Below are positions 2,330 to 45,533 of a stretch of DNA of 64,000 bases, piece after piece. Source of the stretch: Inonotus obliquus (lineage: Eukaryota; Basidiomycota; Agaricomycetes; Hymenochaetales; Hymenochaetaceae); contig JAJHTX010000010.1 of the NCBI GenBank assembly GCA_032164295.1, positions 310,001-374,000 of the forward strand, written 5' to 3'. The notes beneath the pieces were generated by a model. It was not told the DNA's origin and did not search any database. It saw nothing but the letters and a program-made list of their open reading frames with translations. A program made the position numbers and the translations under genes. How positions within the stretch are numbered: the stretch's first letter is position 1; every line of letters starts with the position of its first letter.

Positions 2330-3102
2330 TCGCTTCGCACTCTTGTCTCCACATGGTGGCGTCTCGCAAAGCACAGCTGTTACAGGTGCAATGTACTTTC
2401 CCCAAGCACACAAGCTGGTAGTTAGTATCATGGTGCCACTCAACTTTGCGTCAAGCTACAAGTCATATAAACGCCCTCCCTTGGCCCCAGGGATGTGTCT
2501 ATACAATAACAACGTACACCCAAAGCACCCATCTTCTAATCACCACTGCTTTCCAAGACGTCAATGCTCTCCAACCACTCTGAGCTATGAGAAGAGCGAT
2601 TAGCAAAGCCCCAAAAAAACCCAAAAAGGAACTGGAATATCAAAAACACCCCAAAAATCTAAGACACCGAACTGCATAAAAAAGAAAGGGGAGATTACAG
2701 TAATCAATCAAGATGGACAGAAAGAGGTACTGGAACTTGTGACTGAGCCTAAATATACAAAGGAAATGAAAGGACACATGTATTTTTCCACCATCAAGGC
2801 ATGTCTGTATCATCTCATTTTCTCCTAATTTGAATAGGAGCTAATATACAATGTCAGTTGCCAACAAAACTAGCTGTCACCTTAAACTTTGTACACGCAG
2901 GACAGGAGGATTCAAGTTTATGGCTCTACTCCAATACTTCAGAGGGAATATAGTGCCAGAAGGGATGGGTTCAGGCCCTACAGTGACACAAGCCATGAAT
3001 ATTCTCTTTAACTGGGTAGAGTTCAATGATTTGCTTGATTTATCTGAAAAGATGGCTAAACAGTATCAAGACTGTCTTGCTGCAGAAAAACAGCAGCAAT
3101 AA
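2330..3102 (+). pseudogene. Broken fourth copy (G0) of the modular exon-cassette gene family
   Basis: The first 250 bp match the promoter block of genes G1-G3, including the TATA-like CATATAAACGCC near 2463. The expected start ATG (2564) is followed by a stop after eight codons. The frame that joins the next exon is interrupted by TAG at 2601-2603, so the 5' exon is broken. After that the family layout resumes. An exon ends at 2802, a 55-nt intron with the family sequence occupies 2803-2857 (GTCTGTATC...GTCAG, with a GAGCTAATAT branch region), and a last exon of 245 nt runs 2858-3102 in phase 1. The last exon encodes one module (a GSGPTVTQAM segment) and ends with a glutamine run before TAA. 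It is oriented opposite to G1-G3 and lacks the upstream H sequence. Confidence 0.75.
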
Positions 3103-12203: not shown

Positions 12204-12241
12204 TCGTCGGGACAACTGGTTGACTTTCACAAGATTTCGTT

Positions 12242-14469: not shown

Positions 14470-14472
14470 TTA

Positions 14473-14484: not shown

Positions 14485-14512
14485 GGCTTGATCGTCCCGA
14501 TCAAGGTTGATT

Positions 14513-18034: not shown

Positions 18035-18072
18035 AACGAAATCTTGTGAAAGTCGACCAGTTGTCCCGACGA

Positions 18073-19386
18073 CTACTCCTGGTCCTTGACAAAATCCTCC
18101 TCTCCCCTTTCTTCATCCATCAACCCCTCTACTTGTGTAGCTCGCAGCTCCTCGGGTCCTCCGTCGACCGCTTGGAAGTCACGTTCCTTCAGCTCTCCTA
18201 GTGCGTCTGCAAAGGCCCTGCGGGTCTCCGGGTCCCATGCCCTAATCACCTCTCGTACTATCTGCCCCTTACTAGGACAACTAGCCATGAGATGCGACGG
18301 CGATCCACAGGTCCAGCATTTGTAACTTCTTCTGGCCCTGTCGATGTCCATTGGGATTCCGGCTCCTGGATGGACTCCTGCCCCTACTCCTTGATGATCG
18401 CGCTGAGGGGGAGGTACCTGTGGCCGATGCTGCTGAGGTTGCGGAGCTTGCTGGACTTGAGGCGGGTTCTTGGTCTGTGTCTGGGTTGGCCAGTTTGTGC
18501 GTGGAGGGCCTGACCTTGTCGCCGTTACTTGACGAAGCTGTTGTTCGATTCTGTCCACGTCAATAGCCTTCGCCTTCCAGCCATCATAGGTGGTAGGGAC
18601 GGTGGCTGAGCGCATGACTCCCTTGACGACCTCGAGGTTCAACGCCCACTTCAATCGGTCGATGAGGATGTCGTTGTGTAGTGCATCTGTAAGACCAGCT
18701 GCCTGACGTCTGATGTCGAACTCGACGAAGAACTCGTCTGCGGTCTTCTTCCCTTGAGTTAGGCGTCGAAGTTCCGCCATCGCCTTCTCTTTCTTGTTTG
18801 GATCGTCAAACGACTTGTCTAGAGCCGTTTGAAAGGCTGCCCAGGTGTCCGGGATACCTGCCGCTTGGTTCGCATCTACGTAGTTCTGCGCCCACGTTCC
18901 AGCAGCTCCGCCTTTCATGTAAGACAAGACAAAGAGTATCTTGCTCTTGCCTGTTGGGAACGACCTGGGGTCCGACTCAAAGCACAGGGTATATTCGCGC
19001 TTGAAGTCCTTGTAGTCGCTGCCATTGAACTCGCTTGGTTCCTTCGCACGAGTCTTGGGGGATGGGGCAGGCGGTGCTGGCGGTTGTTGTACTTGTCCTA
19101 GAGCAGCCGCAAACATCTGCGCGAACTGCTGCATCTGAGTCTGATTGAACCCTTGCGCCATCAGTGGACTTGGTGCTCGGGGAGGAACTGGAGGTGGTAT
19201 TGGTTGTTGTCCTTGTCCTCCAGACATTCGTAGTACAGGAGTCTCTAGAGAGGATACGTCTGAGTCGCTCCTTGACGTTGGAGTAGGGGACGGAGGCGAC
19301 GTAGGCTGAGTCTGAACAAATAACTCGTCTACGTCTCTCTCCACGGCGTCTAGTATTAAAGCACGTCGGCGATGAGTTCTCGACAA
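18073..19386 (-). CDS. gag: Gag polyprotein of element B (437 codons), start codon lost
   Basis: Same protein as the gag of element A: proline-rich N-terminal region, gag capsid domain (FESDPRSFPTGKSKILF, FDDPNKKEKAM) and a CCHC zinc knuckle near residue 355 (CWTCGSPSHLMASC). The codon aligned with the ATG of element A is ACG (19389-19387), preceded in both by TAA. Translation would have to start at the non-standard ACG or at an internal methionine such as MSGGQGQQ. Either this copy is impaired or the family tolerates near-cognate initiation. The C-terminus is acidic and ends 38 nt before the listed pol start. Confidence 0.85.
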   Translation of the reverse strand: MSRTHRRRALILDAVERDVDELFVQTQPTSPPSPTPTSRSDSDVSSLETPVLRMSGGQGQQPIPPPVPPRAPSPLMAQGFNQTQMQQFAQMFAAALGQVQQPPAPPAPSPKTRAKEPSEFNGSDYKDFKREYTLCFESDPRSFPTGKSKILFVLSYMKGGAAGTWAQNYVDANQAAGIPDTWAAFQTALDKSFDDPNKKEKAMAELRRLTQGKKTADEFFVEFDIRRQAAGLTDALHNDILIDRLKWALNLEVVKGVMRSATVPTTYDGWKAKAIDVDRIEQQLRQVTATRSGPPRTNWPTQTQTKNPPQVQQAPQPQQHRPQVPPPQRDHQGVGAGVHPGAGIPMDIDRARRSYKCWTCGSPSHLMASCPSKGQIVREVIRAWDPETRRAFADALGELKERDFQAVDGGPEELRATQVEGLMDEERGEEDFVKDQE

Positions 19387-19790
19387 CGTTTAACGACGAG
19401 GAGGGGGTACAGGTAAGGGATCTAGGCGCTGACGCAGGTTGTTCGGCAATCCGTCCGTAAGCCTTATGACAACGCGGAAGATCCAGGCAGGGAAAACAAT
19501 AGAGAACCCCGGGGCACTATGAACGTGTGGGAACTCCTTGGTGTAGATGACGTTCCCTCGGCACCAGATGGTAACGATAAGCGCCACGGTGACTTTGGGT
19601 AAAGGGTTGTGACTGATCAGGAATACACGGAAACTTTAACAGTCTCCGGGCCGGTTGTTGTTGTCTCGGTAAAAACCGGGTTGGTGAAAACTCGTGTTCG
19701 TTGGGAGTTACTCAACGTCAACGGGAGACCACAGGAGGGAACAGCAAGGACTGGGAAACTCAGAGGTCGCTGAACGGTCCTGGTACGTAG

Positions 19791-27898: not shown

Positions 27899-28708
27899 TC
27901 ATGCATAGCAACTCGAACAGTCTGCCATGTCTTCATCTTCTGCAGGTGCTGCTGGGCCGTTTGGCTGTCTCGGTTGACTCGGGCTTCCTTCCTCAACAGG
28001 ATTAGCTCGATTATCAATCACCGGAGCGGCAGGCCTATATGGTTCTGCCTGTACCATGGCAGGTAACCCAGTCCGCCAGATCGTCGCTCGGCGATATCCG
28101 TCAGGTATTTGTACCTCCGTTCCTTGCACCTGATCGCCACTGATCCCTTCCATGACAAAGGTTAAGATTGCCCCGTTGATCCGTTCCCTCGGTTGAGAGA
28201 TTTCCAATGCTATCATCCCCGGTAGTTGATTCTGCTCCAATTTCCATCGTGCCACTATGTTTCCAAATAGATTATTGCGTAGTACTTGATGTTCTCTTGT
28301 AGCTTCCGCATGTATTGGCCAGTCGAGTTGTATTGCCACTCGTCGGCATAGCTGGGAATGTATCGATCTTCTTGTCCATGCAATTACACCTGCATTCGCA
28401 ATGTAGTGTAACCCCCTTCCTGTCCAAACCGTAACTTCGTGCAAGTATGCATTTAGTGTAGGTGTGAACAATGGTTGAGTTGTTTCTGCAACCGTCGACC
28501 AATGGTGGTTGGTTCGAATTGAATATGGGTCACTTCGAAGCATATGATTGACTGCATCCTCAAGTATCCATGTCTGCAGTATCCATGCTTCCTCATGTGC
28601 CCATTCACAGAACCTGCATATTGGTGTATTGATTTGTCCTGGTAATGTCGAGCCCCAGGGACAATAGCGCGTGCGTGTATAATATGTTCGATCGAATTGT
28701 CTTTCCAT
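27899..28708 (-). CDS. 269-aa protein encoded inside LTR-like element C, copy 3
   Basis: Intact, same length as copy 1, with few substitutions (for example SEQN to LEQN and GNQVQ to GDQVQ). It keeps the CRFC pair, the YLHEVTVWTGRGLHYIA, CRRVAIQLDW and LPGMIALEIS segments, and the polar proline-rich C-terminal third. Two intact copies out of three argue that the frame was under selection until recently or that the insertions are recent. It lies upstream of the element's TATA box. Function is unknown; no enzymatic motif was recognised. Confidence 0.65.
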   Translation of the reverse strand: MERQFDRTYYTRTRYCPWGSTLPGQINTPICRFCEWAHEEAWILQTWILEDAVNHMLRSDPYSIRTNHHWSTVAETTQPLFTPTLNAYLHEVTVWTGRGLHYIANAGVIAWTRRSIHSQLCRRVAIQLDWPIHAEATREHQVLRNNLFGNIVARWKLEQNQLPGMIALEISQPRERINGAILTFVMEGISGDQVQGTEVQIPDGYRRATIWRTGLPAMVQAEPYRPAAPVIDNRANPVEEGSPSQPRQPNGPAAPAEDEDMADCSSCYA

Positions 28709-30479: not shown

Positions 30480-30760
30480 ACACTTATAATATGAACCAGG
30501 ATGATATTCTATTGTATATTTTAAATATCAGCCAAGTAGATATACTAATTTATATTTAAAATATCGCTTAGTAGATACTTAATATGTCAATTTGCATATC
30601 ACAACCCAACTGATATTTAAAATATCAACCCTGTTAGTATCTAAATCAATATTTAAAATGCCAGCACGTGATCTATATTTTAAATATTGACCCATCAGAT
30701 ATCCTTATCAGTATTTAAAATGACAAAGAAGAAAACATTTAAAATCCTGACCTCACCTCC
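30480..30760. repeat. AT-rich stretch with ATATTTTAAATAT palindromes
   Basis: It repeats TATTTAAAATATC and ATTTTAAATATC words at short intervals, as in the tract at 7940-8166 and the left end of repeat E. No gene. Confidence 0.65.
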
Positions 30761-30784: not shown

Positions 30785-31508
30785 TCAACCCTTTCCCTTT
30801 CCCAACCTCTGGCTGTCGTCGCCCCACATACCTGTTCCCCGTATCTTGTTCTCGAGATCACTTGCAGCCTCATCCACCGATTTGCCTGAACCACTCACTA
30901 TTGGTGGACCATCGGTTCTGTCGATTACTTCAAGCACTAACTTTCTATTGTGCCAAGAATGCCTAATTGTATATGCATGATTTTCTCGTAGAACTGAAGT
31001 TGTATGTTAGCCCCTATTATTGAAATGAGGAGAAAGTAAGATGATACAGACATTCATAGATCTCATTAGTATAAAACATATCTCCTTCCATTTCATCCTC
31101 AGAGTTTGTTGTTGTTTTTGATTGGATCTCTTTCTTTGTCTGTTCAACGAGCTGAGCCATAACTTCCTTCATCGTACTGCCTTCACACCTCCACTTCTTC
31201 GATATTTTTCCAGACCGGGTTTTAAATGCAACCACGAACCCGGTGTGGAAGCGGATCGGAAAGCAGTGAAGCTTGTATCCATGCTTATTAGCAACTGAAA
31301 TAGTATGTCAGCTCTTCAGATTAGAAGAACTGAGATGACACAGACAATTATCGAGGATATCGAATCCTTTTCTGTCTGCTTTTTCCATTTGCTCCACATA
31401 TGGGTTCTTCTTAGTTCCTCTTGAAGGACTGAGTCTGGACTCGGACTGAGTATCTGATGCTTCAGGTTCCTCTCCCTCTACACTTCTAATATCTCGTTTT
31501 CGGGACAT
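30785..31508 (-). CDS. Modular exon-cassette gene G1 (3 exons, 204 aa)
   Basis: The exons are 31508-31346, 31294-31052 and 30993-30785, separated by introns of 51 and 58 nt. All junctions are phase 1, and the splice keeps one open frame to TGA. The start is the first ATG after the conserved promoter block (MSRKRDIRSVEGEEPE). Exon 1 is a charged leader ending in a GFDILDN helix-like tail. Exons 2 and 3 each encode one module of the family: hydrophobic strand-like residues, then a W or G-S-G, then a T/S-x-x-E-x-x helix (CEGSTMKEVMAQL, SGSGKSVDEAASDL). The C-terminus is basic. There is no signal peptide or membrane segment. Function is unknown. The introns are nearly identical in sequence to those of G2 and G3. 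All signals look intact, so it may be expressed. Confidence 0.7.
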
Positions 31509-31519
31509 TTATGTCGCAG

Positions 31520-31775
31520 TGATCACTAGGTGAGTACTTTGAGTGTACGTTATTATTGTATAGTCGCATACCTGGGGCCAAGGGAGGGCGTTTATATGGC
31601 TTGTAGCTTGACGCAAACTTGAGTGGCGCCATAGTCACTACCAGCTTGTGTGCTTGGGGAAAGTACTTTGCACCTGTGACAGCTGTGCTTTGCGAGACGC
31701 CACCATGTGGAGACAAGAGTGCGAAGCGAAGGCCCCCACGGGCACGACCCTCAGGCTCAGGGCTCCGAGTCAATG
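31520..31775 (-). promoter_or_regulatory. Conserved promoter block of gene G1
   Basis: On the minus strand it contains CATATAAACGCCCTCC (TATA-like, near 31596) about 90 bp before the ATG. It also contains the upstream stretch CCACATGGTGGCGTCTCG, shared by all four G copies. Its shared sequence with G0, G2 and G3 includes indels that break frame, so it is regulatory, not coding. Confidence 0.6.
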
Positions 31776-31780
31776 GACAT

Positions 31781-33650
31781 TGAGCAAGCCGGACTCGCGA
31801 GGTGTAGGTAGTACCAATGAATTACAGCTGCTCGTAAGAAATGATTGCATTGGGCGAGAGCTGCGTTTGTGTACATTGCTTGTTTGCATAATCGCGGCAG
31901 CAGCGAGATGTGCCACTTCCACGCCCTGTGGCGACGGCAACTTCTGACCATTATTCCATCAGTAACGGTCTGATAAGAACCGTCAACAAGTAGAAACTCT
32001 TGGTGGTAATGACTCACGAGTATCTCACAGCACTGCCACTGTCACTGTCACGATCACTCTCTCTGTTGTTCTCCATCGATCATCAATTGAACTCACCGTC
32101 CATCTCCAGCTATAATGAAATCTGATAGAATCGCATCCGAAATGATTATTACAAATTGAAGGAAATGAGGTCGTTGTCGAAACTGCAAACGGGTCACGGA
32201 GCGGTGTTACCCTGGTGCGTCATGTTTTTCCTTTCTTTCTTTCTTACTATTTTGACCGTTGCCCACAATTTGAGCTTTGACACCGTGAACGGAACACACA
32301 GATGTATGACCTCCTTCGCCATCGGCTACTTCACTCCCTCACGCCACGTCAGAGTCTCGCCCTGTGCAATAGCTTGGCCCATCATAGCAGCGCAAAGTTC
32401 AAACCTGAATACCAGTGACGGCAAAGCATCCGATTCGAAAGTTTTTCACTGTTAGGAGCGTCACATTGGTTTCATCCGCTGTAATGGCCTCCTCACCACC
32501 GCGTTCCAATACTCCACCCTTCGTATGCTCTATTTCCTGGGAGATCCACGATTCGAGCTCTCGTGCATCTACCGTGAATAATAGGCCTGGTCCGAACGGC
32601 CACCTGTCCGTCTTCCGTGTTATGAGATTGGTAGGCGGCCGAAACTCTCCACCGCCCTCGAATCGAATATGGATGCGACGGACCTTGCTAGGGCACCCGG
32701 GATGGTAGAAGAGGTTGGACGTACGCGTTATTTCCTGACGTTGTTACACAACTCGGTCTGGTTACCATGTTGCACGAATATGGAGGACGACAGACCGGTT
32801 GCGAGTCGTGAGTTGCGAAAAGAACAAAGTCATTCTTCGGGCAACGCCTTCCTCGTTTAGGTGTGTACATCTGTGGTCTGTGCTGGCTCCTGCCATGTTT
32901 TCCGCCGTAAGCTCATGGGTCTCCTCACAGGTGGCGAGTTTTGCGAGTCATTCTGCACACATCCGGAAAATGGTTATTGAGACGTCCTCGTCTCACCCAC
33001 TTTAGGCCGTCCTCATAGTGCTCATTAGGGTTGCTGTTGTTTGTTTAGCAGACACCCGTGAGTGTCGAAGTGGATTATGAAGTGAAAAAATATACGAATT
33101 ATATTGATCATCTAACTCCTTGCGAGAATAATATCTCAGAACAGGAACTTTGGAACGGATGGTGTGTCGTGCTGACTCTCGGTTGGTCCAATCTCCGTCT
33201 TTCGAAAGGCGCCGAAGCGTAGCTGCATGGCTTCAAGAGCATTATATCCCCCAACTTCGTCGCCATCTTCCTGTGTATCGTCTTCGCTTTTTCACAATGC
33301 ATTCGCGGATGCTCGGATGCATATCTTATCGAGACTGTCCGTCAGCGAACAGTATCTCCTGCTTCCCACTCAACTCGTCTTGATGCTCACATACAATCTT
33401 TGTACAAGGCCGAAACGGCGGACTGGAACTTAGAAAGTGGTGCACTGTATAATGTGGCGGGAAGGAAGTGTTTTCACGCCTGATTCATATTCGAAACGGA
33501 ACAGGTCGATCATACGGCTGGTAAGCACTATTCGAAGTCAAGAGGAACAGAAGAAAGAGGTGATCGATGACCTGAGTGATTTTCATTCGTGTAATGATCA
33601 TTCTGATGAGAATATACGCAAGCTCACTTATGATACAATACCATGATTAA
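31781..33650. repeat. Repeat H, unit 1, with a decayed minus-strand ORF
   Basis: It is nearly identical to unit 2 (35830-37480) over more than 1.4 kb. On the minus strand about 100 codons around 32410-32720 are open (RPPTNLITRKTDRWPFGPGL, FTVDARELESWISQEIE) and end at TGA after GIQV. A further upstream open segment is separated by stops or possible short introns. It is probably the remnant of a host gene or transposon gene. I could not assign it. Confidence 0.55.
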
Positions 33651-33771
33651 AGCAACTACGCTGTGCAAGGCGGTTGTTGAGCAAAGATGACACTGACAGG
33701 TCCTTATTTCAAAGTCTGAAGTATCACATGATATAATCTACTCCTCCCCACAATAGTGTTCCGGCCCGGGA

Positions 33772-35542
33772 CTACTGTAGATTCTCGAGAATTGCCCTTT
33801 CCAAAGTCCATTTGTAGAACCCTTCTAATGCCTCACCCACATTTGAGCCTGGAAATGCATGCTGATCGTCGACTCTTGTTATGGTAAATTCGAACTCTCC
33901 CTCGTCCTTCCAAGAGTGATGAAGCGTATATCCTTGCCCTTCAGCACCTGAAGTGATATATTAGCCACTATTCAATTTGAGAAACTGAGATGATACAGAC
34001 AGATCTTGGCGAATTGATATTCATAAGTAGTATTCAAATTGTCTTCATTTACCGTTTCCTCGGATTCTGCGGCATTCCCGTTTTCTACTCCTGCTTCTCC
34101 CGCTTCCAGTGAACGTTCGGCACGCGCACTTACTTTTTGGGTTGATTTCGGAGCTTTCTTCATCTCCTCAAGTGGAACCGAACGGTAGAGCTCTACAACA
34201 GCGTACGTCACTGTAGTGCCTGAACCCTTCCACCCTTCGGGCACATCTGTGCCGTTGGATTGAAATTTAATCACGAACTCTCCCTCGTCGTCTTGCAGAA
34301 GGAGAAGCGAATACTTTTTCATTTCAGCAACTGAAGTTGTATATTAGCTCCTATTCAAGTTAAAAGAAAATGAGATGATACAGACTAGCTTGTAAGTCGC
34401 CATGAAGCGCGTGGGATCTCATTTCCTCTATATCCTTAGGCTCCTTCACAACTTTGAGTTTGGGCTTCGCTGCTTCTCCCACTCTCTTTTTGGACATCCC
34501 GGTGTCTGATTCTGCGGTCTTCCTTTCTCTTTCATCTCCTATGACCTTGGATGGATCGACCTTCCTTTCCTTTCTCGGTTTGCGTTTGATGGTGCTCGTT
34601 GTCTCTCCTACCATATTATCAAGTCTAGGTGCGTGTTTTCTCTGTTTGGATTTCCTGTGGGCTTCAGCCTCGTCTGACCCTCGCTGTCTCTGGTGTTTTA
34701 TACTGCCGATGGCCTTTTCCATTGCTTCCTCCACTGTAGGGCTTAAACCCTTCTCGGACCCGAATGGTTCGTTGTCCCTATCAGTTTTAAATAGTAACAC
34801 GAACTTCTTTTCCGTAGTCGCAAGCTGGACCTTGTAAAGGCGCATCAAACCATTTGCTTTAGCATCTGAAGTGATGATGTTAGCCCCTATTCAAATTAGG
34901 CGAAACTGAGATTACACAGACATGCATCGAGGATGTTATAATCCTTGTGTCCTTGCATCTTTGCTCTATATTTCTCAGTAACATCTTCGATTACGCGGCG
35001 CTTTGGCCTTTCGCGTGTGTGTTCACTTCCCTCGTTTGGGGACATTGATGTGTCGGAAAGCAGGGATGATCTACTGGCGGGTGCTCGGAGTGTGGATTCT
35101 GGGGGCCGCCGCATTGATGCTTCTCCACTTTCAGGTTTAGGCTGCTCTGATATCCTGCGGGCTTCAGCCTCATCTGGCCCTCGCTGTCTCTGGTGTTTTA
35201 TACTGCCGATGGCCTTTTCCATTGCTTCCTCCACTGTAGTGCCTAAACTCTTCGACCCGAATGGTTCGTTGCCCCTATCAGTTTTAAATAGTAACACGAA
35301 CTTTTTCGTAGTCGCAAGCTTGTCCTTATAAAGGCGCATCGTACAACCATTCGCTTTAGCATCTGAAGTGATGATGTTAGCCCCTATTCAAATTAGGCGA
35401 AACTGAGATTACACAGACATGCATCGAGGATGTTATAATCCTTGTGTCCTTGCATCTTTCCTTTATATTCCTCAGTAACATCTTCGATTACGCGGCGCTT
35501 TGGCCTTGATGATGGCTTTTCACTTCCCTTGTTTGAAGGCAT
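33772..35542 (-). CDS. Modular exon-cassette gene G2 (5 exons, 516 aa)
   Basis: The exons are 35542-35419, 35362-34922, 34865-34386, 34330-34001 and 33947-33772, with introns of 56, 56, 55 and 53 nt. Exon lengths 124, 441, 480, 330 and 176 keep one frame, and all junctions are phase 1. The protein starts MPSNKGSEKPSSRPKRRV. Exons 2, 3, 4 and 5 each begin with one module (for example KFVLLFKTDRGNEPFG then LGTTVEEAMEKA; EFVIKFQSNG then GSGTTVTYAVVEL; EFEFTITRVDD then GSNVGEALEGF). Lysine/arginine/serine-rich linkers follow. Exons 1 and 2 end in nearly the same tail (MQGHKDYNILDA). Exons 2 and 3 are clear duplicates (both have EEAMEKAIGSIKHQRQRG). There is no signal peptide or membrane segment. 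Function is unknown. It appears intact. Confidence 0.75.
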
Positions 35543-35554
35543 TGACGTCTTTGA

Positions 35555-35815
35555 AAGCAGTGGTAATGTATAGGTGGGTGGTCCGAGTGCACGTTGGTAT
35601 TGGATATTAGAGGCATACCTGGTCCAAGGGAGGGCGTAATTTATATTGCCTGTAGCGTGAAGCAAACTTGAGTGGCGCCACTACCAGCTTGTGTGCTTGA
35701 CATTAATATTGCACCTGTAACAGCTGTGCTTTGCGAGACGCCACCATGTGGAGACAAGAGTGCGAAGCGAAGGCCCCCACGGGCGCGACCCTCAGGCGCT
35801 CAGGGCTCCGAGTCA
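35555..35815 (-). promoter_or_regulatory. Conserved promoter block of gene G2
   Basis: The same block as upstream of G1 and G3, with small deletions. The TATA-like box is GCAATATAAATTACGCC near 35645 on the minus strand. CCACATGGTGGCGTCTCG lies upstream. Confidence 0.6.
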
Positions 35816-35829
35816 ATGGACATTGAGCA

Positions 35830-37480
35830 AGGCGGACTCGCGAGGTGTAGGTAGTACCAATGAATTACAGCTTCTGGTAAGAAATGATTGCATTGGGCGA
35901 GAGCTGCGTTTGTGTACATTGAGCTTGTTTGCATAATCGCGGCAGCAGCGAGATGTGCCACTTCCACGCCCTGTGGCGACAACAACTTCTGGCCATTATT
36001 CCATCAAGAACCGTCAACAAGTAGAAACTCTTTGTGACTCACGAGTATGTCGCATCACTGCTACTGTCACTATCACGGTCACTCTCTCCGTCCGAAGTCA
36101 TCGATCACTCTTTGAGCTCACCCTCCATCTCCACCTATAATGGAATTCTAATCACAGTCCCGCAATCACTTCCGAAAAGATCATTACAACTTGAAGGAAA
36201 TGAGGTCGTTGTCGAAACTGCAAACGGGTCAAGGAACGGTGTTGCCCTGGTGCGTCATGTTTTTCCTTTCTTTCTTTCTTACTATTTTGACCGTTGCCCA
36301 CAATTTGAGCTTTGACACCGTGAACGGAACACACAGATGTATGACCTCCTTCGCCATCGGCTACTTCACTCCCTCACACCACGTCAGAGTCTCGCCCTGT
36401 GCAATAGCTTGGCCCATCATAGCAGCGCAAAGTTCAAACCTGAATACCAGTGACGGCAAAGCATCCGATTCGAAAGTTGTTCACTGTTGGGAGCGACAGA
36501 TTGGTTTCATCCGCTGTAATAGCCTCCTCACCACCGCGTTCAGATTCTCCACCCTTCGTATGCTCTATTTCCTGGGAGATCCACGATTCGAGCTCTCGTG
36601 CATCTACCGTGAATAATAGGCCTGGTCCGAACGGCCACCTGTCCGTCTTCCGTGTTATGAGATTGGTAGGCGGCCGAAACTCTCCACCGCCCTCGAGTCG
36701 AATATGGATGCGACGGACCTTGCTAGGGCACCCGGGATGGTAGAAGAGGTTGGACGTACGCGTTATTTCCTGACGTTGTTACACAACTTGGTCTGGTTAC
36801 CATGTTGCACGAATATGGAGGACGACAGACCGGTTGCGAGTCGTGAGTTGCGAAGAGAACAAAGTCATTCTTCGGGCAACGCCTTCCTCGTTTAGGTGTG
36901 TACATCTGTGGTCTGTGCTGGCTCCTGCCATGTTTTCCGCCGTAAGCTCATATGGCGAGTTTTGCGAGTCATTTTGTACACATCCGGAAAATGGTTATTG
37001 AGACGTCCTCATCTCACCCAATTTAGGCCGTCCTCATTAGGCTTGCTGTTGTTTGTGTAGCAGGCACCCGTGAGTGTCGAAATGTATTATGAAGTGAAAG
37101 AATATACGAACTATATTGATCATCTAACTCCTTGCGAGAATAATATCTCAGAACAGGAACTTCGGAAGGGATGGTGTGTCGTGCTGACTCTCGGTTGGTC
37201 CAATCTCCGTCTTTCGAAAGGCGCCGAAGCGTAGCTGCATGGCTTCACGAGCATTACATCCCCTAACTTCGTCGCCATCTTCCTGTGTATCGTCTTCGCT
37301 TTTGCACCATATATTCGCGGGCATATGTTATCGAGACTGTCCTGGTTCCCACTCAATTCGTCTTGATGCTCGCGTACAAACTTAGTATAGGGTCGAAACG
37401 ACCGGACGACCATACTGTTGATCGATGGCTTGAATTGATTTTCAGTACTTATGATGCGTGACGATCAAAGATGACGCATG
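35830..37480. repeat. Repeat H, unit 2, with a decayed minus-strand ORF
   Basis: Tandem copy of unit 1. The minus-strand open segment runs from about 36753 to TGA at 36436-36434. It carries the same RPPTNLITRKTDRWPFGPGL stretch and keeps its frame against unit 1 despite substitutions, which suggests it was once coding. The plus-strand ORF at 36191-36616 is its shadow. Confidence 0.55.
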
Positions 37481-37531
37481 ACAACGCGGGAAGTCTGAAG
37501 TATCACATGATATAATATACTGGACTAAATA

Positions 37532-38872
37532 CTATAGATACTGAAGTCTCCTTTCCACCACCCATCCGTTGAGCTTATCTAATGCCTCACCCACATTTGA
37601 GCCTGATAATGTAACCGGTGGCTTGCCGTGTCTTGTTAAGGTAAATTCGAACTCTCCCTTGTCGTTCCAATGGTATGCAAGTATATATCCGTTCGCTTTA
37701 GTACCTGAAGTGGTATGTTAGCCCCCATTCAAATTGAGAAACTGAGATGATACAGACAGCTATCAGCGCTTTTATATTTATGGGTAGTTTCTATATTGTC
37801 TTCATTTACCGTTTCCTCCCCCTTCTGATGTCGAACTCAAACTAATTGCACGCTTTTTTGTTCCGCGTTCGAGTACTATGGGCTCCGATGTTTCTCCTGC
37901 TGACAGTTCAGGTGATTGGCGCCTTTCCTTCCCCTTTTTGGACGCTGGTGCTTTTCCACGCACTTTAGAATGTTTCGCTGCTTTTCTCGCTGACAGTGCG
38001 GCCCTCCCCTCACTTGCATTTCCTTTGTTTGTTTTGGACGTTGATGCTTCTCCACATTTCCATTTCCGGTCAAGAGGTATTTCCTTAGCTGGGGAATTAT
38101 TCCTTTCATGTTAGCTCCTGTTCAAATTAGGAGAAACTGAGATGATACAGACATTCGAATACAGTTTCGTATAGACCATCCATTGCTTCTTTCACTGTAG
38201 GACCTAAAGCATTCCACTTGTACTCCTTTCCGTCTTCAAACTTTATAAACTGTACTCCGTATTTAGCCCTCTTTGCAAGGTCGTCTCCATGAAGTCTCAG
38301 TGCTGCTTTATTCTTAAGAGCATCTAAAATGATATCTTAGCCCCTATTCAAATTAGAAGAAACTGAGATGATACAGACGTTCCTTGAGTTTATCATATTT
38401 CGTGTGTCCTATCATCATTTCCACTTCTTCCCGATTTGGAGGTCTGAATCGCTTTTTTTCTGTGACATTTCCCGCTCCAGAATCCATTTCTGTGACATTT
38501 CCCGCTTCAGAATCCTTTTCCGGATCCGGAAAGCTGCGGAGATCAACTCCGAATAAGGCGGCGTGTAGTCTACTCATTGCTTTCTGCACTGTACTATCTA
38601 AAAAATCCGGCCCCCACTGCTTTTTGTTCTTCTTGGAAAATAATCTTACTCCGTATTTCAACTTTGGCGCGGAGTCGTTGCTATGGAGTCTCAGTTCAAG
38701 ATTATTCTCTTCAGCGTCTAAAGTGGTATGTTAGCCCCTGTTCAAATTAGGAGAAACTGAGATGACACAGACAGTTCTCGAGTTCCCAATATGCCCAGTG
38801 TCCAGTCATAATATCTAATTCTTTCAGAGTTAAAGGTCTGAATCGCGATGCATCTCCCGCTCCAGAATCCAT
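37532..38872 (-). pseudogene. Modular exon-cassette gene G3 (5 exons) with a 1-nt frameshift
   Basis: The exons are 38872-38773, 38717-38379, 38323-38153, 38088-37758 and 37704-37532. The introns are 55, 55, 64 and 53 nt, all phase 1. Exons of 100, 339, 171 and 173 nt fit the cassette rule, but exon 4 is 331 nt, one too many. The shift lies in or near the GAAGGGGGAGG run, where the frame before ends at TGA and the frame after (EETVNEDNIETT) matches exon 4 of G2. Modules are seen in exon 2 (KYGVRLFSKKNKKQWG), exon 3 (KYGVQFIKFEDG, then LGPTVKEAMDGLY) and exon 5 (FEFTLTRHGK, then GSNVGEALDKL). Exon 4 is linker only. The ATG used by G1 is AAG here, so the start is the next ATG (MDSGAGDASRF). A shortened protein could still be made. 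Confidence 0.7.
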
Positions 38873-38899: not shown

Positions 38900-39150
38900 T
38901 TGGAAAGCAGTGGTGATTGATAGATCGGTGCTTTGGGTGTACGTTGTTATTGTATAGTCGCATACCTGGGGCCAAGGGAGGGCGTTTATATGGCTTGTAG
39001 CTTGATGCAAACTTGAGTGGCGCCATAGTCACTACCAGCTTGTGTGCTTGGGGAAAGTACATTGCACCTGTGACAGCTGTGCTTTGCGAGACGCCACCAT
39101 GTGGAGACAAGAGTGCGAAGCGAAGGCCCCCACGGGCACGACCCTCAGGC
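38900..39150 (-). promoter_or_regulatory. Conserved promoter block of gene G3
   Basis: CCATATAAACGCCCTCC near 38988 on the minus strand and CCACATGGTGGCGTCTCG upstream, as in G0-G2. The ATG position that follows in G1 is mutated to AAG. Confidence 0.6.
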
Positions 39151-40293
39151 GCTCAGGGCTCCGAGTCAATGGACATTGAGCAAGGCGGACTCGCGAGGTG
39201 TAGGTGGTGCCAATAGATAACAGCTGCTGGTAACCAGCAAGAAATAATTGCATAGTGGCGAGAGCTGCGTTTGTGTACATTGCTTGTTTGCACAATCGCA
39301 GCAGCAGCGAGATGTGCCACTTCCACGCCCTGTGGCGACGACAACTTCTGACCATTATTCCATCAGTAACGGTCTGATAAGAACCGTCAACAAGTAGAAA
39401 CTCTTACTCACGAGTATCTCACAGCACTGCCACTGTCACTGTCACGATCACTCTCTCTGTTGTTCTCCATCGATCATCAATTGAACTCACCCTCCATCTC
39501 CAGCTATAAGTAATGAAATCCGATAGAATCGCATCCGAAATGATTATTACAGCTTTAAGGAAATGAGGTCGTTGTCGAAACTGCCAACCGGTCACGGAGC
39601 GGTGTTGCCCTGGTGCGTCATGTTCTCCTTTCTTTCTTTCTTACTATTTTGACCGTTGCACTGTGGCTAATTCGAAATTGGTTGAGCTTTGACACCGTGA
39701 ACGGAACACACAGAAGTATGACCTCCTTCGCCATCGGCCTCCTCACTGCTTCCCACCACGTCAGAGTCTCGCCCTGTGCAATAGCATGGTCCATCATAGC
39801 AGCGCAAAGTTCAAACCAGAAAGTCAGTGATGGCAAAGCCGTTGTTCTTCGAATATGTTGCTGTCACCTGCATCCTCTACATCATCAGCGAGGGGTACGA
39901 TCCCGTTGCAATACAATTCGAAAGTTGTTCACTGTTGGGAGCGATAGATTGGTTTCATCCGCTGTAATGGCCTCCTCCCCACCGCGTTCAAACTTTCCAC
40001 CCTTCGTATGCTCAATTTCCTGGGAGATCCACGATTCGAGCTCTCGTGCATCTACCGTGAATAATAGGCCTGGCCCGAACGGTTATCTGTCCGTCTTCCG
40101 GGTTATGAAATTGGCATGCAGTCAAAACTCTCCTGCGATGTCGGGCTGTCATTCAAGTAATCGACAAGCTAGAAGAGACCCGGATTGGATTCCCGCTGCA
40201 GTCACCCAGTTCAACGCCATTGTCACCATGCCCGTCGAACCCATCGTGCCGCTTGAACATCCCACAAACAGCCGGGTTGCGAGCATCGGGTGA
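39151..40293. repeat. Repeat H, unit 3, shorter and more diverged
   Basis: Collinear with units 1 and 2 to about 40115. It has an insert near 39840-39920 and a different right end. The minus-strand segment FELCAAMMDHAIAQGETLTW followed by WEAVRRPMAKEVI is open here but broken by stops in units 1 and 2, while the downstream segment (WPFGPG region) has a TAA here. No unit is fully open, so all three are decayed. The 226-codon plus-strand ORF at 39613-40293 is judged a shadow. Confidence 0.5.
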
Positions 40294-40490
40294 AAGAGGT
40301 GAGGAGCGAACGGCAACTCACGGAGGATGACCGTCGCCATAAAGAGGATGAAGAGCGGCGACACAAAGAGGAAGAAGAGGAGTACCCACATCGAGGAACG
40401 TCGACAATATGGAGAAGAGCTACGTCGGCGAAAAGAAGAGGAAGATGCAAAGGGTAGAACAAAATCTGAGGCCAAAATGGAAAAGGTAAA
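40294..40490 (+). pseudogene. Decayed charged coiled-coil fragment
   Basis: Two frames together encode a strongly Glu/Arg/Lys-rich heptad-like stretch (EDDRRHKEDEERRHKEEEE in one frame, IEERRQYGEELRRRKEEED in the next). A shift lies near 40383, and a GTAAAT donor-like site follows EAKMEK. It looks like one exon of a gene ruined by a frameshift. No family assigned. Confidence 0.4.
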
Positions 40491-41460
40491 TCAGCCCCTC
40501 TCGAAATCAAACGAGTGTAAAGCTTCCTTGTCCGTTATTGACCCTCCTCTTTCAGCATCTCCGACCTTTTGTCGAAACATATGTAAATATATCGCTCAGC
40601 CACTTCCGTCCACCCTCTCTACGGCTTGCCACATCCAAGGCCTATACCAAGTTTAATATCTTTACGACAACAAGCTGAGCAGAACACGGACGCAAGGGAC
40701 AGAAAACTCCGTTGCGCGATTTTATTTTCTGGTCTCTGGATATTAGTATACTGAACCTATGTAGTCGGTCCTCGGACATGCTCCATCGAGGTCGAGGGCC
40801 GGGTTGCATTTTCGGATATCGTCCTTGTATATTGACTAAATAAAGCCATGATTTCTCGTACACACATACGCAAATTTCCCACTGCCAGATTTGTCGCTTG
40901 CATTGCGTTTCCTCCCCACCCCATGATCTTAACCAACGAGCACTAGCCCGAGCACCATCACGTCCAACCGTCCAACCGGCTTACTTTCAACTTGATCTAC
41001 TGGTAGACGCAGTCGGATGATATGGATGACCCGGACTATTCGTTGGCAAATCTCTCTCGAGTCTGAGATCATGATGGCTTTAATAGTAGCAACTTCTGCG
41101 GACTAACCCACGCCCGCGAGTAACACCTAAACGAACAGTCTATCACTGTCTTGCCCAGGCACCAGCTTATGCTTTCGTCTCGTGTAGCGGTACACGGCAT
41201 TCTGCATCCTACTCTTTCAGTATTTTATATCAACGAGCTAACTTCACGGTACTTGGGCATTTTTGCTTTTACGAGACTACGAACACAGGCTTCCGAGTCT
41301 CACTCAAATTGCTCATCACCAAACTCGATCAATGGGCCGGATTCGGATCACATATTCGTGAGTGTATTAACATAACGATCGACCATACTACGTTACTCAG
41401 GCTACAGGCTACAGGCCGTTTACATCCAAGAATAAGAACGGCAACATGATTCTCCAAGCT
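40491..41460. other. Intergenic, no gene seen
   Basis: Marks the transition from the repeat compartment to the gene compartment. There are only short unsupported ORFs. The last few hundred bases would be the 3' flank of the F-box gene. Confidence 0.6.
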
Positions 41461-43020
41461 TTAATTCCCCGACTCCGACGCCAAGTCCAAGTCCAACTCA
41501 TCAACAACCAAACTCAACTCTCTTCTTACATCTTCATCGTCCGATTCAATTGCAACAACACTTTCGAGTTCCCTTCCCCTTCCCCTTCCTCGGACAATTC
41601 GTAGTACATTCTTAAACCTCTCCATCCTCAAACAACCCAACCACTCTTTTCCAGAAAGTATAACCCCCTCAAGACCAACAAATCTCGAATTCCTTCCACA
41701 CAATCCATCAAAATGGTTTTCAAGCATCATCCACCAAGCTTCTTGTCCATATACATATCCTTTTGGTAACCTCGCATTTACATATACTCTCCCAACATTC
41801 CGGAATTCTAAAAAGATGAGTGGTATGGTGTTTGGAGGTATAGGTCGAGTTGAGAATATTGGAAAATATAGTGAGGATATGTTTGGACAATAACCTGATG
41901 GAGAGGAGAGGAGAGGAGAAAGGAAATCTTGACGTAAGAAACGAAAATCTTGATGGACCTCTAGACTAGTTATTCGGGATCCTATTCCTGATGCTGATGT
42001 TGATGTTGACGTAGAAAACCGGAGATTCAGACTATCGTCGAAGAAGTTGAATATTGCTTCTGGACGTTTAAGAATGATGTGTTGTAAAGAAGGTAGAGAG
42101 ATTGTGTATCTTCGATTTGGTGACGATTCACCGAATGTGTCGAGGGATTGGATGGAGAGTGTGTGGACGTTTGGGAGGGAGATTATCGTTTCCTCTATCG
42201 GTTCTTCTTCCATTTCTTCTTCTTCAATATTCGAAACATTTGAACCATGACCACGAACACCGCGACCATAAGGAAAGTTGCCAGCTCCAAGAATCAAAAC
42301 TCTTAAAGAATCAGAGAACAAGAAAGGTGATGGTATGGAAGAAGTTGAAAATAACGAGTCGTTAACTACGTTATGCCATTCAACTCTTTTCAGATTAGAG
42401 AATTCCAAATCATCTATTGAGGGATTATCCTTGATGAACTCCAACACCAAGTCTTCTCCTTCTCCTTCAGAACCTTGAACTTGAACTTGTGATGGTCGGT
42501 TGATAACAAGGACGTAAGGACAACATGATAATATCTTCCGCGCGTTCTCGAGTATTGAGTTATGTGATTCGACAGGAGCTGTAGGACTCAACGAAACGCG
42601 CTTTACAAACTTTCCATATCCCAACCCCAATCTTCCTCCCTCTTTCCTTCCACTCGAATCATCTACATCTTCACCAGTAGCATTCCTAGACTTCTCCAAA
42701 ACCTCCCGTAAACCATCCGATCCATACCTAATCCAAATATCCTCATACAAAAACTCGGGAATCAACCTCCAAAACAACCGACAAGCCAACGTCAAGGAAT
42801 ATTTCGTCCTCAACGCCTCCCTACACGCTTCAACTCTCTCAGAAATGTATAAGCCCTCGAAAGGTTTATAAGATATTAGAGAATTGACATCTCGTATTGG
42901 GTTGTTTGTTGCTACACGGAAGATGTTTATGAGTAGTTCGTGTGGGAGATTATGGATGTTGGATTTGTCATTTGGATTTGAAGTCGGAAACCCGGAAGAA
43001 GAGGCAATAGCAGAGGTCAT
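41461..43020 (-). CDS. F-box protein with degenerate leucine-rich region (519 aa)
   Basis: F-box proteins recruit substrates to SCF ubiquitin ligases through Skp1. The F-box lies near residues 22-75 (NLPHELLINIFRVATNN). It is followed by a segment typical of Agaricomycete F-box families (LACRLFWRLIPEFLYEDIWI, then RYGSDGL). The rest has repeated leucine/isoleucine patterns (LPNVHTLSIQSLD, LPSLQHIILKRPE) consistent with irregular leucine-rich repeats, plus an acidic EEEEMEEEPIEE insert. It is a single exon. The paralogue at 44184-45533 is transcribed divergently about 1.2 kb away and shares the LYEDI-RIRYGSDGL core, so the pair arose by inverted duplication. The substrate is unknown. Confidence 0.85.
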   Translation of the reverse strand: MTSAIASSSGFPTSNPNDKSNIHNLPHELLINIFRVATNNPIRDVNSLISYKPFEGLYISERVEACREALRTKYSLTLACRLFWRLIPEFLYEDIWIRYGSDGLREVLEKSRNATGEDVDDSSGRKEGGRLGLGYGKFVKRVSLSPTAPVESHNSILENARKILSCCPYVLVINRPSQVQVQGSEGEGEDLVLEFIKDNPSIDDLEFSNLKRVEWHNVVNDSLFSTSSIPSPFLFSDSLRVLILGAGNFPYGRGVRGHGSNVSNIEEEEMEEEPIEETIISLPNVHTLSIQSLDTFGESSPNRRYTISLPSLQHIILKRPEAIFNFFDDSLNLRFSTSTSTSASGIGSRITSLEVHQDFRFLRQDFLSPLLSSPSGYCPNISSLYFPIFSTRPIPPNTIPLIFLEFRNVGRVYVNARLPKGYVYGQEAWWMMLENHFDGLCGRNSRFVGLEGVILSGKEWLGCLRMERFKNVLRIVRGRGRGRELESVVAIESDDEDVRRELSLVVDELDLDLASESGN

Positions 43021-44183
43021 AGTAGTAGCATTCCCTGTCTGTGTTTCTCGCGGTCGTGGTACGGTTGATCGAGCCTAGTCTAGTTGCAGGGGTACAGTAC
43101 GATACACTGACGTATGATTGTATCAGTAAGGTATTCTGACTCTAAGATTAGACTTGGAGACGAGAAAAGATAAAGAGCGACGCGGATGAGTACCAAGTAG
43201 ATGTAGTAACCCCTGAGTACGTCACATCTTGGTGATGGGCAATTTGAGGGAAATTGAGAGCTCGGAAATGCATAATGAGGCTTCACCGTGAGTCACTGAG
43301 GCAGAATTGACACGGGGAATATGACGGACGGGCAAAGGACGCAGAGTGTCCCCGAGCTGCTGAGCAAAGTAAGGTGGACGCTGCCGTTATTGAGACTTTC
43401 GGTTTGTGCTCGTAGTCTTATAGATTTTTCAGCCAGCGTGAAGTTAGCGTGTTGATACGATGGCCGGAAAAGATATTCTGTTCGTTTACGTGTCCGTTGA
43501 GGCTAGAATCCAAGCCATCTCAGACCTTGATTCGACAAAAATTTGCCTAACTTAGGGCTCAGAACTCGCATCGAGATCGAATAGTCCAGGTCATCCATCT
43601 TCCAATTCGATCAAGCTGAGGGTAAGCCAGTTGTACGGTTGAACGTGATGATGGTCGTTGGTAAGATCGTTGTGGGGGAATGCAATGTACGACAGGTAGC
43701 AAATTGCATGTGAGAAATTATGACTCTTTTTGGCCGAGGTCGAGGTCGAAATTGAAACTCTCGGCTTATGACGATACTTAACGGTGTCTTTCCTAGGGGA
43801 CATGTCGTTCATGTATGTAGCTCCGACTGAATTATCTTCATGGACGCGTTGACCTAGCTAGTAGCTCATGCGTTTCTATCTCGCAGTTCATATTGTATCA
43901 TGGTTTTCGGACGACAATATGCCATTTGCTGGTTGTTCCAACCTTCTTAAGCAAGTCCCATCTCTGTGACGTTCTTCTCTGCCTCTCTAGGAACTCGACA
44001 GCATCGGGTTACCTCAGCGAGTTCCAATACGCGTGTGAATGTATGTGTGCCTCCCCCTCCCCGGCGCGATACTTCGCAAAGGATGGCGGGCGGCAACTTT
44101 GTACGTCTTACATAATGCACATATGCAATCGCAATCCTTGTGCTTCCTGAAATGCAAGCATCACTTAAGCCGAGTGTTCGAGC
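43021..44183. other. Divergent intergenic region between the two F-box genes
   Basis: It holds the promoters of both genes. No TATA box stands out. Small ORFs here look non-coding. Confidence 0.6.
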
Positions 44184-45533
44184 GTGGACGTGTTGGTCCT
44201 ATCCCCTTTCATGTCCTCCGGCTGGACATCAGCCCGTGCCATTCCTTTACCCGAAGAACTCCTCACCCACATCTTTGATCTTGCTACCCATAATCCTGCT
44301 CGGGATATAGACGCGCTCGTTGGGCTTCAGTCATTTGAAAAGGATTATAGTTCGGACGTTGACTTGTTATGTGATGTTCCGCTTGCGACCAAACGCGCTA
44401 TTGCCTTGACGTGCTCACAGTTTCGAAGGCTTGTTGCGAAGTTCTTGTATGAGGATATTCGAATCCGATATGGATCGGATGGGCTTGTGGAAGCTTTGGA
44501 GAGGCAACCTGAGCTGGGAATATTGGTGAAGAGGGTGTCGATATCTCCAGAGGGATTCAAAGCGGCTGGTAATTGGATTGCTTCATACCCGTCGGGAACG
44601 CGACACATCCTTGAAAGGTGTCCCAACACTATCATCCTCACTCGACCACAGCATCTACCTATCGACACAGAAGACTCACAAGATGAGTTCTCCGCGTTGA
44701 TACCTCCTACCGGGGATATCAACTTGGATGACATACATCTTCCGCATTTGCGACGAGTGGATTGGGTTAACAGCCCGATAGACACTCTTCCGTCAACGTT
44801 ACCAACGCCAAAGTTTATCTGGAAGTCGAGCTCACTGCAAACGCTTACCATTGGACCGGATCATTTCCCATTGCAGTTGAACGAATCCTGCATTGTAGAG
44901 TTGCCGAGTCTACAAACTATCCGTTTGCGTTCAGTTCATACTCCAGGGAACACTGAGGATGGGACTATCAATCCCGAGTCTGTCCAGCTCCCTGCGCTAC
45001 GGAAGCTCGTTTTCTCACTACCCGATGGCGTATACACGTTATTCTTCGAACAGTTCTTGCGCTCATGTGGACCTCGCATCGAGGAGATTGAAATTGCATC
45101 AAATGAACGATTCCTGAAGCATGACTATATTAGCATACTCCTACTCAACTGCTCAAACGCTACAAAGCTCAGCTTCCCTGTATTCACGACAAAACCGACG
45201 AGGAAGAACACGAGGAGACAAGCGATAGAAGTTGTGTATTTAATTACGCAGATAGGACTCAGCGCCGCGGGTTTCAGAGGGGAGGAAGAATATGATTGTG
45301 ATGAAGATTCGCAGTGGGAACGATTAGCATGTCATTTTCTAGCCATCCTAGGCTCAAGGAGTCGATTCTCGAAGCTTAGGAAGCTGGTTCTGTACGGTGA
45401 GGAGTGGAAATGGGTAATTTCTGACTCGCGGTGTAAAGGTGGTCTGAGACTTCTGAAATCAAAAAATATGGAGTTAGAGTGCGAGCACGAATCTGTGGCA
45501 TCTATGCTCAAGACTGCCCTTGAAGATTCATGA
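44184..45533 (+). CDS. F-box protein, paralogue of the neighbour (449 aa)
   Basis: The F-box lies at about residues 20-75 (PLPEELLTHIFDLATHNP), then LTCSQFRRLVAKFLYEDIRI and RYGSDGLVEALER, as in the divergent neighbour. The C-terminal part has leucine-rich stretches (LPSLQTIRLRSVHT, LPALRKLVFSLPDG) and ends SMLKTALEDS. It is a single exon. An alternative start at 44211 (MSSGWTSARA) would shorten the protein by nine residues. It lacks the acidic insert of its paralogue. It likely forms an SCF substrate receptor; the target is not known. Confidence 0.85.
   Translation: MDVLVLSPFMSSGWTSARAIPLPEELLTHIFDLATHNPARDIDALVGLQSFEKDYSSDVDLLCDVPLATKRAIALTCSQFRRLVAKFLYEDIRIRYGSDGLVEALERQPELGILVKRVSISPEGFKAAGNWIASYPSGTRHILERCPNTIILTRPQHLPIDTEDSQDEFSALIPPTGDINLDDIHLPHLRRVDWVNSPIDTLPSTLPTPKFIWKSSSLQTLTIGPDHFPLQLNESCIVELPSLQTIRLRSVHTPGNTEDGTINPESVQLPALRKLVFSLPDGVYTLFFEQFLRSCGPRIEEIEIASNERFLKHDYISILLLNCSNATKLSFPVFTTKPTRKNTRRQAIEVVYLITQIGLSAAGFRGEEEYDCDEDSQWERLACHFLAILGSRSRFSKLRKLVLYGEEWKWVISDSRCKGGLRLLKSKNMELECEHESVASMLKTALEDS

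Follow-up and report, generated by a model that had tools for sequence, protein, structure and literature searches.

Modular genes and their introns in the window

The DNA that we analyzed is a 64,000-nt stretch (hereafter the window) of the 36 Mb genome of Inonotus obliquus. It carries members of a modular gene family, in which an earlier note had placed eleven introns of 51–64 nt that start with GTCTGT and interrupt phase 1, a description borne out for all 11. Ten of them lie at 30785–38872, all on the minus strand, and the eleventh lies at 2803–2857 on the plus strand. The features are as follows, with E-values from a profile built without the gene's own modules:

2604..3102, plus strand: single-module gene, perhaps the G0 of the earlier note
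2803..2857, plus strand: intron of this single-module gene, 55 nt
30785..31508, minus strand: G1, two modules, 204-aa model with two introns (E 1.2e-23)
31295..31345, minus strand: G1 intron 1, 51 nt
30994..31051, minus strand: G1 intron 2, 58 nt
31560..33400: G1 upstream unit, ~89% identical to the G2 and G3 upstream units where aligned
33772..35542, minus strand: G2, four modules, 516-aa model with four introns (E 6.4e-47)
35363..35418, minus strand: G2 intron 1, 56 nt, same sequence as G2 intron 2
34866..34921, minus strand: G2 intron 2, 56 nt
34331..34385, minus strand: G2 intron 3, 55 nt
33948..34000, minus strand: G2 intron 4, 53 nt
35600..37300: G2 upstream unit
37532..38872, minus strand: G3, last module broken off by a frame break
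38718..38772, minus strand: G3 intron 1, 55 nt
38324..38378, minus strand: G3 intron 2, 55 nt
38089..38152, minus strand: G3 intron 3, 64 nt, located in a linker, 3' end altered
37705..37757, minus strand: intron of the broken-off last module of G3, 53 nt
38930..40700: G3 upstream unit, partly aligned

The G3 frame stays open, across three introns, between 38872 and 37802, and a break precedes the last module (37836–37532); the module profile recognizes both pieces, with E-values of 8.7e-16 and 2.4e-10. The single-module gene is probably also broken because its ATG in a family-typical start context (2564) is out of frame with the intron-bearing frame. Within G2, reading the translation by eye, we noticed remnants of a 5' UTR and of a start region at about 35040–35110.

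A profile search with the intron over 264,120 bases returned 93 rows, of which 85 scored at least 20 bits, and two genome-wide searches with intron patterns gave at least 49 and at least 53 matches, against 0 for the reversed patterns. We then took 51 introns by consensus alone, ignoring reading frame, and spliced the 50 that had enough flanking sequence. The frame stayed open across the junction in phase 1 for 45 of the 50, in phase 0 for three and in phase 2 for none; left unspliced, the same 50 gave no open phase-1 frame and two open phase-0 frames. A module-profile search, which the earlier note had proposed, recognized 34 of 36 gene models with their own modules excluded and none of the 36 reversed proteins.

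The layout given in the earlier note needed correction. The module spans ~70 residues and the intron sits within its first part rather than between modules, so that an exon runs from the second part of one module through the linker into the beginning of the following one. Nine of the 85 introns lie in linkers instead, and several of these, viewed by eye, have altered ends, as after deletions. The free duplication that the note expected of symmetric phase-1 exons fits the observed arrays.

Searches for relatives of these proteins returned little. Pfam gave no match to the full G2 protein and, for sets of 36 and 13 modules, listed no family shared by two or more members, the best E-values being 0.025 and 0.002. 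A profile search of the PDB returned short stretches that match designed repeat proteins, besides weak hits attributable to chance, and exact-word searches of a protein database that includes Hymenochaetales proteins found nothing at E ≤ 1 for G2 or for a ten-protein alignment. The family is thus apparently lineage-restricted, as judged by these two protein searches, which require shared exact words. Of the 36 models, 23 have a start codon and reach 140 aa or more, and a clearly hydrophobic N-terminus is seen in none of these; judged by sequence, the proteins look intracellular, and their function is something we can only infer.

The module resembles the dsRBD in its predicted alpha-beta-beta-beta-alpha order and in a weak collinear profile match by hhalign (P 0.00044, probability 34%). 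The contact motifs of dsRBDs are KKxAK-like and GPxH-like. The first motif occurs in 1 of 69 modules and the second in 0 of 69, and a curated dsRBD model was listed for 0 of the 36 and 0 of the 13 modules.

Divergence of introns and exons

We compared introns and exons for 69 of the 85 introns, dropping 16 (nine in linkers and seven in incomplete modules). Mean pairwise identity was 0.839 for introns (55 columns), 0.433 for exon nucleotides (207 columns; 0.41, 0.46 and 0.43 by codon position) and 0.187 for protein (69 columns). The claim that the introns are more alike than the exons they join was therefore upheld by alignment, and the contrast is confirmed genome-wide. Intron distance was below synonymous distance in 99.8% and below nonsynonymous distance in 99.9% of 2346 pairs, the deep pairs among them being saturated and poorly aligned. 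Nor is the likeness confined to splice signals: intron columns 7–35, which lie outside them, are 0.82 alike vs 0.86–0.87 in the splice regions. As an extreme case, the first introns of genes on contigs 2 and 10 share 57 identical bases, while the proteins differ at 71–77% of sites and the flanks, past the first ~300 columns, are ~51–65% different.

Codon models fitted to six hand-chosen groups (35 of the 69 modules, with kappa on a grid) gave whole-module omega values of 1.59, 2.04, 1.85, 1.09, 1.79 and 1.79, with 2dlnL against omega = 1 of 9.1, 7.5, 5.6, 0.2, 4.7 and 7.9, respectively. Omega = 1 was rejected in five of the six groups, the sixth being the one at 1.09, indicating positive selection for amino-acid change. 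Along these same trees, introns accumulated 0.018–0.50 substitutions per site and exons 3.1–5.9 per codon. Changes also fell more often in polar columns (199 of 583) than in those of the hydrophobic core (35 of 218). Because the exons are positively selected, with omega of 1.6–2.0 in five of six groups, we attribute the outlasting of exons by introns mainly to this selection on coding parts, a factor that the earlier note did not mention.

Selection for amino-acid change alone, however, cannot make synonymous sites outpace introns. In 15 close module pairs, pooled dN was 0.198, dS 0.145 and intron K 0.057, giving a dN/dS of 1.37 (1.03–1.82) and a dS/K of 2.5 (1.5–5.1). dN exceeded dS in 11 of the 15 pairs, and K was below dS in 11 and not below it in four. 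Whole-gene exon dS for G1, G2 and G3 was left out because non-orthologous modules get paired.

The 5' flanks gave a mixed picture. Among eight gene pairs with flanks less than 25% different, introns lagged behind the flank in four cases (0.056 vs 0.139, 0.102 vs 0.136, 0.028 vs 0.12 and 0.084 vs 0.22). They diverged faster in G1/G2 (0.196 vs 0.069), G1/G3 (0.16 vs 0.059) and G2/G3 (0.109 vs 0.096), where modules are partly non-orthologous, and in the pair L040/L041 (0.067 vs 0.001), where the flank looks converted. The suggestion of a functional intron sequence is partly supported, by the comparison with synonymous sites, whereas that with the flanks splits four to four.

We looked for such a function at the RNA level. 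Eight introns folded no better than their own shuffles (z –1.4 to 0.8), and Rfam at gathering thresholds gave no match within the window. The two arms of a candidate hairpin, CUCCUA/UAGGGG, can pair in 88.5% of cells vs 32–60% for slid versions; we do not claim it because column shuffles pair equally (89.2%) and no two-sided change was seen. A coding role for retained introns was also rejected: translation from their beginning gives CLYHLSFS before a stop, but the variable positions, by eye, do not track third codon positions.

Selection, copying and other accounts of the contrast

We consider it probable that this is a lineage-restricted family of multi-module genes whose modules are positively selected, each with one slowly changing intron, and which grows by duplication, fusion and exchange. 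In this reading, selection strongly favors amino-acid change in the ~70-residue modules, and their variable surface may be a recognition surface with a role in an arms race or in self/non-self discrimination. Each module would have inherited one short intron at a fixed place in its first part, the slow change of this intron possibly reflecting splicing-level constraint together with occasional copying. Tandem duplication, fusion and unequal exchange would supply new modules and genes, sometimes at or beside introns.

A larger role for copying is the most serious competitor, although we hold it to be unlikely. Conversion and unequal crossing-over directed by introns would homogenize introns, UTRs and flanks, with selection purging conversions that would erase differences among modules, as proposed for HLA class I introns. 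Some copying is likely: L040 and L041 are nearly identical over ~1.1 kb upstream, beside stretches of 0–6% divergence, and both of the chimeric modules that we examined, from nine flagged, switch parent at or near the intron (upstream exon with one parent by 38:12 and 28:6 markers, downstream exon with the other by 61:4 and 39:1). To that extent the gene conversion invoked by the earlier note was partly supported, and the excess of synonymous over intron change also counts in favor of copying. Introns of the same gene, however, are hardly closer to each other than to those of other genes (0.153, n = 61, vs 0.163, n = 2249, a difference given without a significance test), and intron and protein distances are weakly correlated (Mantel r 0.24, 0 of 999 permutations), so introns appear to keep the ancestry of their modules. 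The 57 identical bases shared by contigs 2 and 10, whose flanks there are not similar, would moreover require tracts restricted to the intron. We regard as more doubtful still the proposal that the intron is a dedicated ~55-nt element, conserved end to end from its GTCTGT donor, that coordinates splicing across the family and provides identical, phase-matched crossover sites, with selection for exchangeable, rapidly changing modules keeping introns alike as the exons diversify.

Recent mobile spread of introner-like elements into an older gene family, which the earlier note had raised, could account for many near-identical short introns and for the nine in linkers, yet it is very unlikely. The genome-wide search with the intron consensus, also proposed there, placed 64 of 66 sites within genes of the family (own-modules-excluded profile, E ≤ 0.001), which argues against such spread; of the remaining two, the one on contig 1 matches weakly and in part, and the one on contig 3 lies in a gene of doubtful family membership. 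Position and phase mark the usual site as homologous, the deletion-like ends of several linker introns point the same way, and so does the weak correlation of intron with protein distances. Broken copies (G3, L031 and L044) might suggest relaxed constraint, with introns merely looking conserved among freely drifting remnants, but this account, already disfavored, has very little probability: many multi-exon frames are open, up to a 616-residue model across seven introns, omega exceeds 1 in five groups and core columns change less. Least probable of all is that the exons are targets of hypermutation, in the manner of diversity-generating or editing systems. It would explain why module synonymous sites outpace introns, but kappa in the module groups is ordinary (1.3–2.2), all six substitution types are present (A-G leads in modules with 117 of 359, C-T in the flanks with 47 of 142) and mutation alone cannot yield omega above 1.

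Relation to known systems

The usual expectation for introns and exons is inverted here over 69 modules in one genome. The introns act as markers of homology between proteins whose recognizable similarity is nearly gone, and a search with the intron could locate members in other fungi that protein searches miss. In a fungal family that looks intracellular, an omega near 2 over whole modules points to an undescribed recognition conflict, with a virus, a transposon or in self/non-self recognition.

The earlier note held this design to be undescribed. The family does seem new, and among the open-licence papers listed in our searches none showed such a family or design; introns that outlast positively selected exons, however, are already known, from MSMB. 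Proteins of that kind are secreted. In New World monkeys, the second intron of MSMB is described as more conserved than the exons, with third positions unbiased, in the portion of text available (PMC3268785), and an excerpt on viper small serum proteins gives, for two pairs, KA/KS of 1.74 and 1.54 and intron KN of 0.065 and 0.049 (PMC6609765). Both resemble the fungal family in being multigene, with omega above 1 in coding parts and more conserved introns, but they are single-domain and lack arrays of modules each bearing a copy of one intron. For HLA class I, a title cited in PMC3051395 ascribes intron conservation to intra-locus homogenization; those are alleles at few loci, whereas the fungal genes are dispersed paralogues with repeated modules. 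The HYP effectors of cyst nematodes have a hypervariable domain with reordered motifs, according to the abstract of PMC11228951; they differ in being single loci, each with many alleles, for which programmed editing has been proposed.

Introner-like elements of fungi are, in the extract available, present in unrelated genes (PMC4457414), and some introner families insert as single units that carry a target-site duplication or inverted ends (PMC9860276). The introns described here are likewise many, short, spliceosomal and near-identical, but are confined to one family. Bicycle genes of gall aphids encode very divergent proteins with internal exons nearly all in one phase, and a bicycle-related protein has intron places common to its internal repeats, as excerpted from PMC9168663. 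Those aphid genes use phase 2, whereas the fungal introns are in phase 1 (45 of 50). The single-phase fungal family of intracellular-looking proteins seems to be new.

Introns and exons of the module family

The earlier note held that the introns of this gene family are more alike than the exons they join, and alignment bears this out. Setting aside 16 of 85 introns (nine in linkers, the stretches between modules, and seven in incomplete modules) left 69 modules, among which mean pairwise identity was 0.839 for introns, 0.433 for exon nucleotides and 0.187 for protein. Intron distance was smaller than synonymous distance in 99.8% of 2346 module pairs, and identity was 0.82 in intron columns 7–35, outside the splice signals, and 0.86–0.87 in the splice regions. 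Intron and protein distances were weakly correlated (Mantel r 0.24, a value reached in 0 of 999 permutations). Because deep exon alignments are uncertain, we built the argument on close relatives.

All 11 introns described in the window start with GTCTGT, measure 51–64 nt and are compatible with phase 1, as claimed; ten lie on the minus strand at 30785–38872 and the eleventh at 2803–2857 on the plus strand. Two intron patterns searched across the genome (36,067,925 bases, 30 contigs), including outside the window genes G1, G2 and G3, gave at least 49 and at least 53 matches, and the reversed patterns gave none. An nhmmer intron profile run on 264,120 fetched bases returned 93 rows, 85 of them at 20 bits or more. 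The pattern matches combined to 66 distinct places among the matches listed, and 64 of these fall within gene models recognised by a module profile at E ≤ 0.001, own modules excluded. The two exceptions are a weak contig 1 match and a model on contig 3 (L028:4475, E 1.9).

Since the gene models had been drawn around introns, this profile was jackknifed, each gene's own modules being removed before scoring. It recognised 34 of 36 models at E ≤ 0.001 and 0 of 36 reversed proteins. Pfam, the PDB and two protein-database searches returned no match for the family.

Modules, genes and surroundings

The module spans ~70 residues with the pattern I..Y|AK..gY.L ... FV ... G.G.TV.EA...L..WV, where the bar marks the intron. 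Its predicted fold order is helix, three strands, helix, and the intron site would lie in the first helix, so that each exon carries the bulk of one module, then a linker, then the beginning of the following module. The models contain 49 internal exons of 81–480 nt, symmetric by construction. Splicing was tested on introns picked on consensus alone, 50 of 51 having enough flank, with an open frame defined as 20 codons upstream and 40 downstream. Once spliced, the frame was open in phase 1 for 45 of 50, in phase 0 for three and in phase 2 for none; unspliced, 0 of 50 were open in the phase-1 frame and 2 of 50 in the phase-0 frame.

With starts assigned by a simple rule, 23 of 36 models have a start codon and at least 140 aa, and among these 23 the mean hydropathy over 14 residues near the N-terminus reaches at most 0.86; the proteins look intracellular. 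The pI exceeds 8 in 22 of 36. The frame of G3 is broken ahead of its last module, and in the gene at 2604–3102 the ATG in usual context, at 2564, is out of frame with the intron-bearing frame. At another family locus (L034:7674–8007), small duplicated linker exons have between them introns whose donor ends are altered, and one 38-nt intron, perhaps remnants after deletions.

Other features of the window are:

6221–7030 and 27899–28708, minus strand: near-identical pair of 269-aa reading frames
10926–12203, plus strand: gag, Ty3/gypsy-type
14513–18034, minus strand: pol, Ty3/gypsy-type (reverse transcriptase, RNase H, integrase and chromodomain in Pfam)
18073–19386, minus strand: gag-like frame
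55762–57153: GH5 reading frame, best match Sanghuangporus weigelae (62% identity over 98%)

Portions of two Ty3/gypsy-type elements in opposite orientations occupy 10926–19389. The 269-aa pair is probably a dispersed repeat; one of its frames had no Pfam match. Dense short AT-rich motifs (TATTTAAAATATC-like) adjoin G1 at 30480–30760. Two reading frames at 41461–45533 are F-box-like by eye and matched no Pfam model at E 0.01. Rhizoctonia solani ranks second among the matches of the GH5 frame, followed, among named hits, by six from Coniferiporia, Fomitiporia, Phellinidium and Phellopilus. Coniferiporia, Phellinidium and Phellopilus belong to the Hymenochaetales, as do Sanghuangporus and Fomitiporia. 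The host, too, is probably a member of this order.

Selection, exchange and the pace of the introns

The module exons are under positive selection on a folded domain. Fifteen close module pairs, not fully independent as some loci recur, gave pooled dN 0.198, dS 0.145 and intron K 0.057, with dN/dS 1.37 (1.03–1.82) and dS/K 2.5 (1.5–5.1) by bootstrap over the pairs; dN exceeded dS in 11 of 15 and K fell below dS in 11 of 15. A whole-module codon model on six hand-chosen groups covering 35 of 69 modules gave omega of 1.59, 2.04, 1.85, 1.09, 1.79 and 1.79, with omega = 1 rejected at 3.84 in five. Amino-acid changes avoid the hydrophobic core (35/218, against 199/583 in polar and 53/176 in mixed columns). 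Decay of the modules is made very unlikely by omega above 1 in five of the six groups and by this sparing of the core.

Family genes are built by duplication, fusion and exchange near introns. For nine modules the nearest neighbour differs upstream and downstream of the intron, and two were examined. The upstream exon of L046_1145 follows one parent (markers 38:12; 33:10 with other parents) and its downstream exon another (61:4; 52:12); the changeover falls in the interval from the 3′ part of the intron to ~20 nt inside the exon, and a few markers conflict. L046_898 gave 28:6, then 39:1, with a looser breakpoint. Within the G2 reading frame, 35040–35110 preserves the remains of a 5′ UTR and start region, taken here as a sign that two tandem copies fused. 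In the gene pair L040/L041, ~1.1 kb upstream is almost without differences, flanked by stretches 0–6% diverged; differences concentrate in the module parts, the first two introns together differing at 1/110 sites and the third at 10/53.

Gene conversion, one explanation offered earlier for the intron likeness, is partly supported by the two chimeras that switch at or near an intron and by the L040/L041 tract, but introns are hardly closer within genes (0.153, 61 deep pairs) than between them (0.163, 2249 pairs). Whether the introns are simply neutral meets mixed evidence. Among eight gene pairs with 5′ flanks differing by less than 25%, introns had diverged less than the flank in four cases (0.028 vs 0.12, 0.084 vs 0.22, 0.056 vs 0.139, 0.102 vs 0.136) and more in G1/G2, G1/G3, G2/G3 and L040/L041. 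The window genes thus have introns with a divergence similar to or above that of their flanks, in part because non-orthologous modules were paired, and the L040/L041 flank looks converted. Speaking against neutrality, the first introns of genes from contigs 2 and 10 are identical across 57 bases, whereas upstream, beyond the first ~300 columns, these genes differ at ~51–65% of sites and their proteins at 71–77%. At least some introns are therefore subject to a further force, either constraint or local copying; folding tests did not support RNA structure in them. Upstream units of G1, G2 and G3 (31560–33400, 35600–37300 and 38930–40700; up to ~1.9 kb) share ~89% identity in their aligned parts and are much better preserved than the exons downstream.

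Proposed role and known systems

We propose that modules duplicate and shuffle, that selection would favour new amino acids on their surfaces (omega is measured; the surface is suggested by the polar columns), and that the introns lag, most likely through constraint at the level of splicing with occasional copying. Omega, N-termini that lack a hydrophobic stretch and an apparent restriction to one lineage make it probable that the proteins serve in intracellular recognition, in a conflict with, say, viruses, transposons or non-self. Profile comparison points to a faint likeness to the dsRBD (P 0.00044 at a probability of 34% for one module class, P 0.007 at 5% for the second), and both classes outscored all 60 column shuffles. 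If true, this likeness would be in keeping with a role directed at RNA. Several points tell against it: dsRBD contact motifs occurred in 1/69 and 0/69 modules, the comparison was picked after the likeness was noticed, the column shuffles were its only control, and three of four reference domains were entered by hand.

In viper phospholipase A2 and in conotoxins, introns are likewise better conserved than the fast-evolving exons, and HLA introns are reportedly homogenised. Positively selected exons with slower introns are already in print; the module family itself appears new, no description of such a family or design having been found in the open-licence literature. MSMB has introns more alike than its positively selected exons (PMC3268785), viper serum proteins combine low intron divergence with KA/KS > 1 (PMC6609765; PMC7150969), and aphid bicycle genes carry arrays of same-phase exons (PMC9168663). 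The module family resembles the first two in its conserved introns beside fast coding parts, and the bicycle genes in its same-phase exon arrays.
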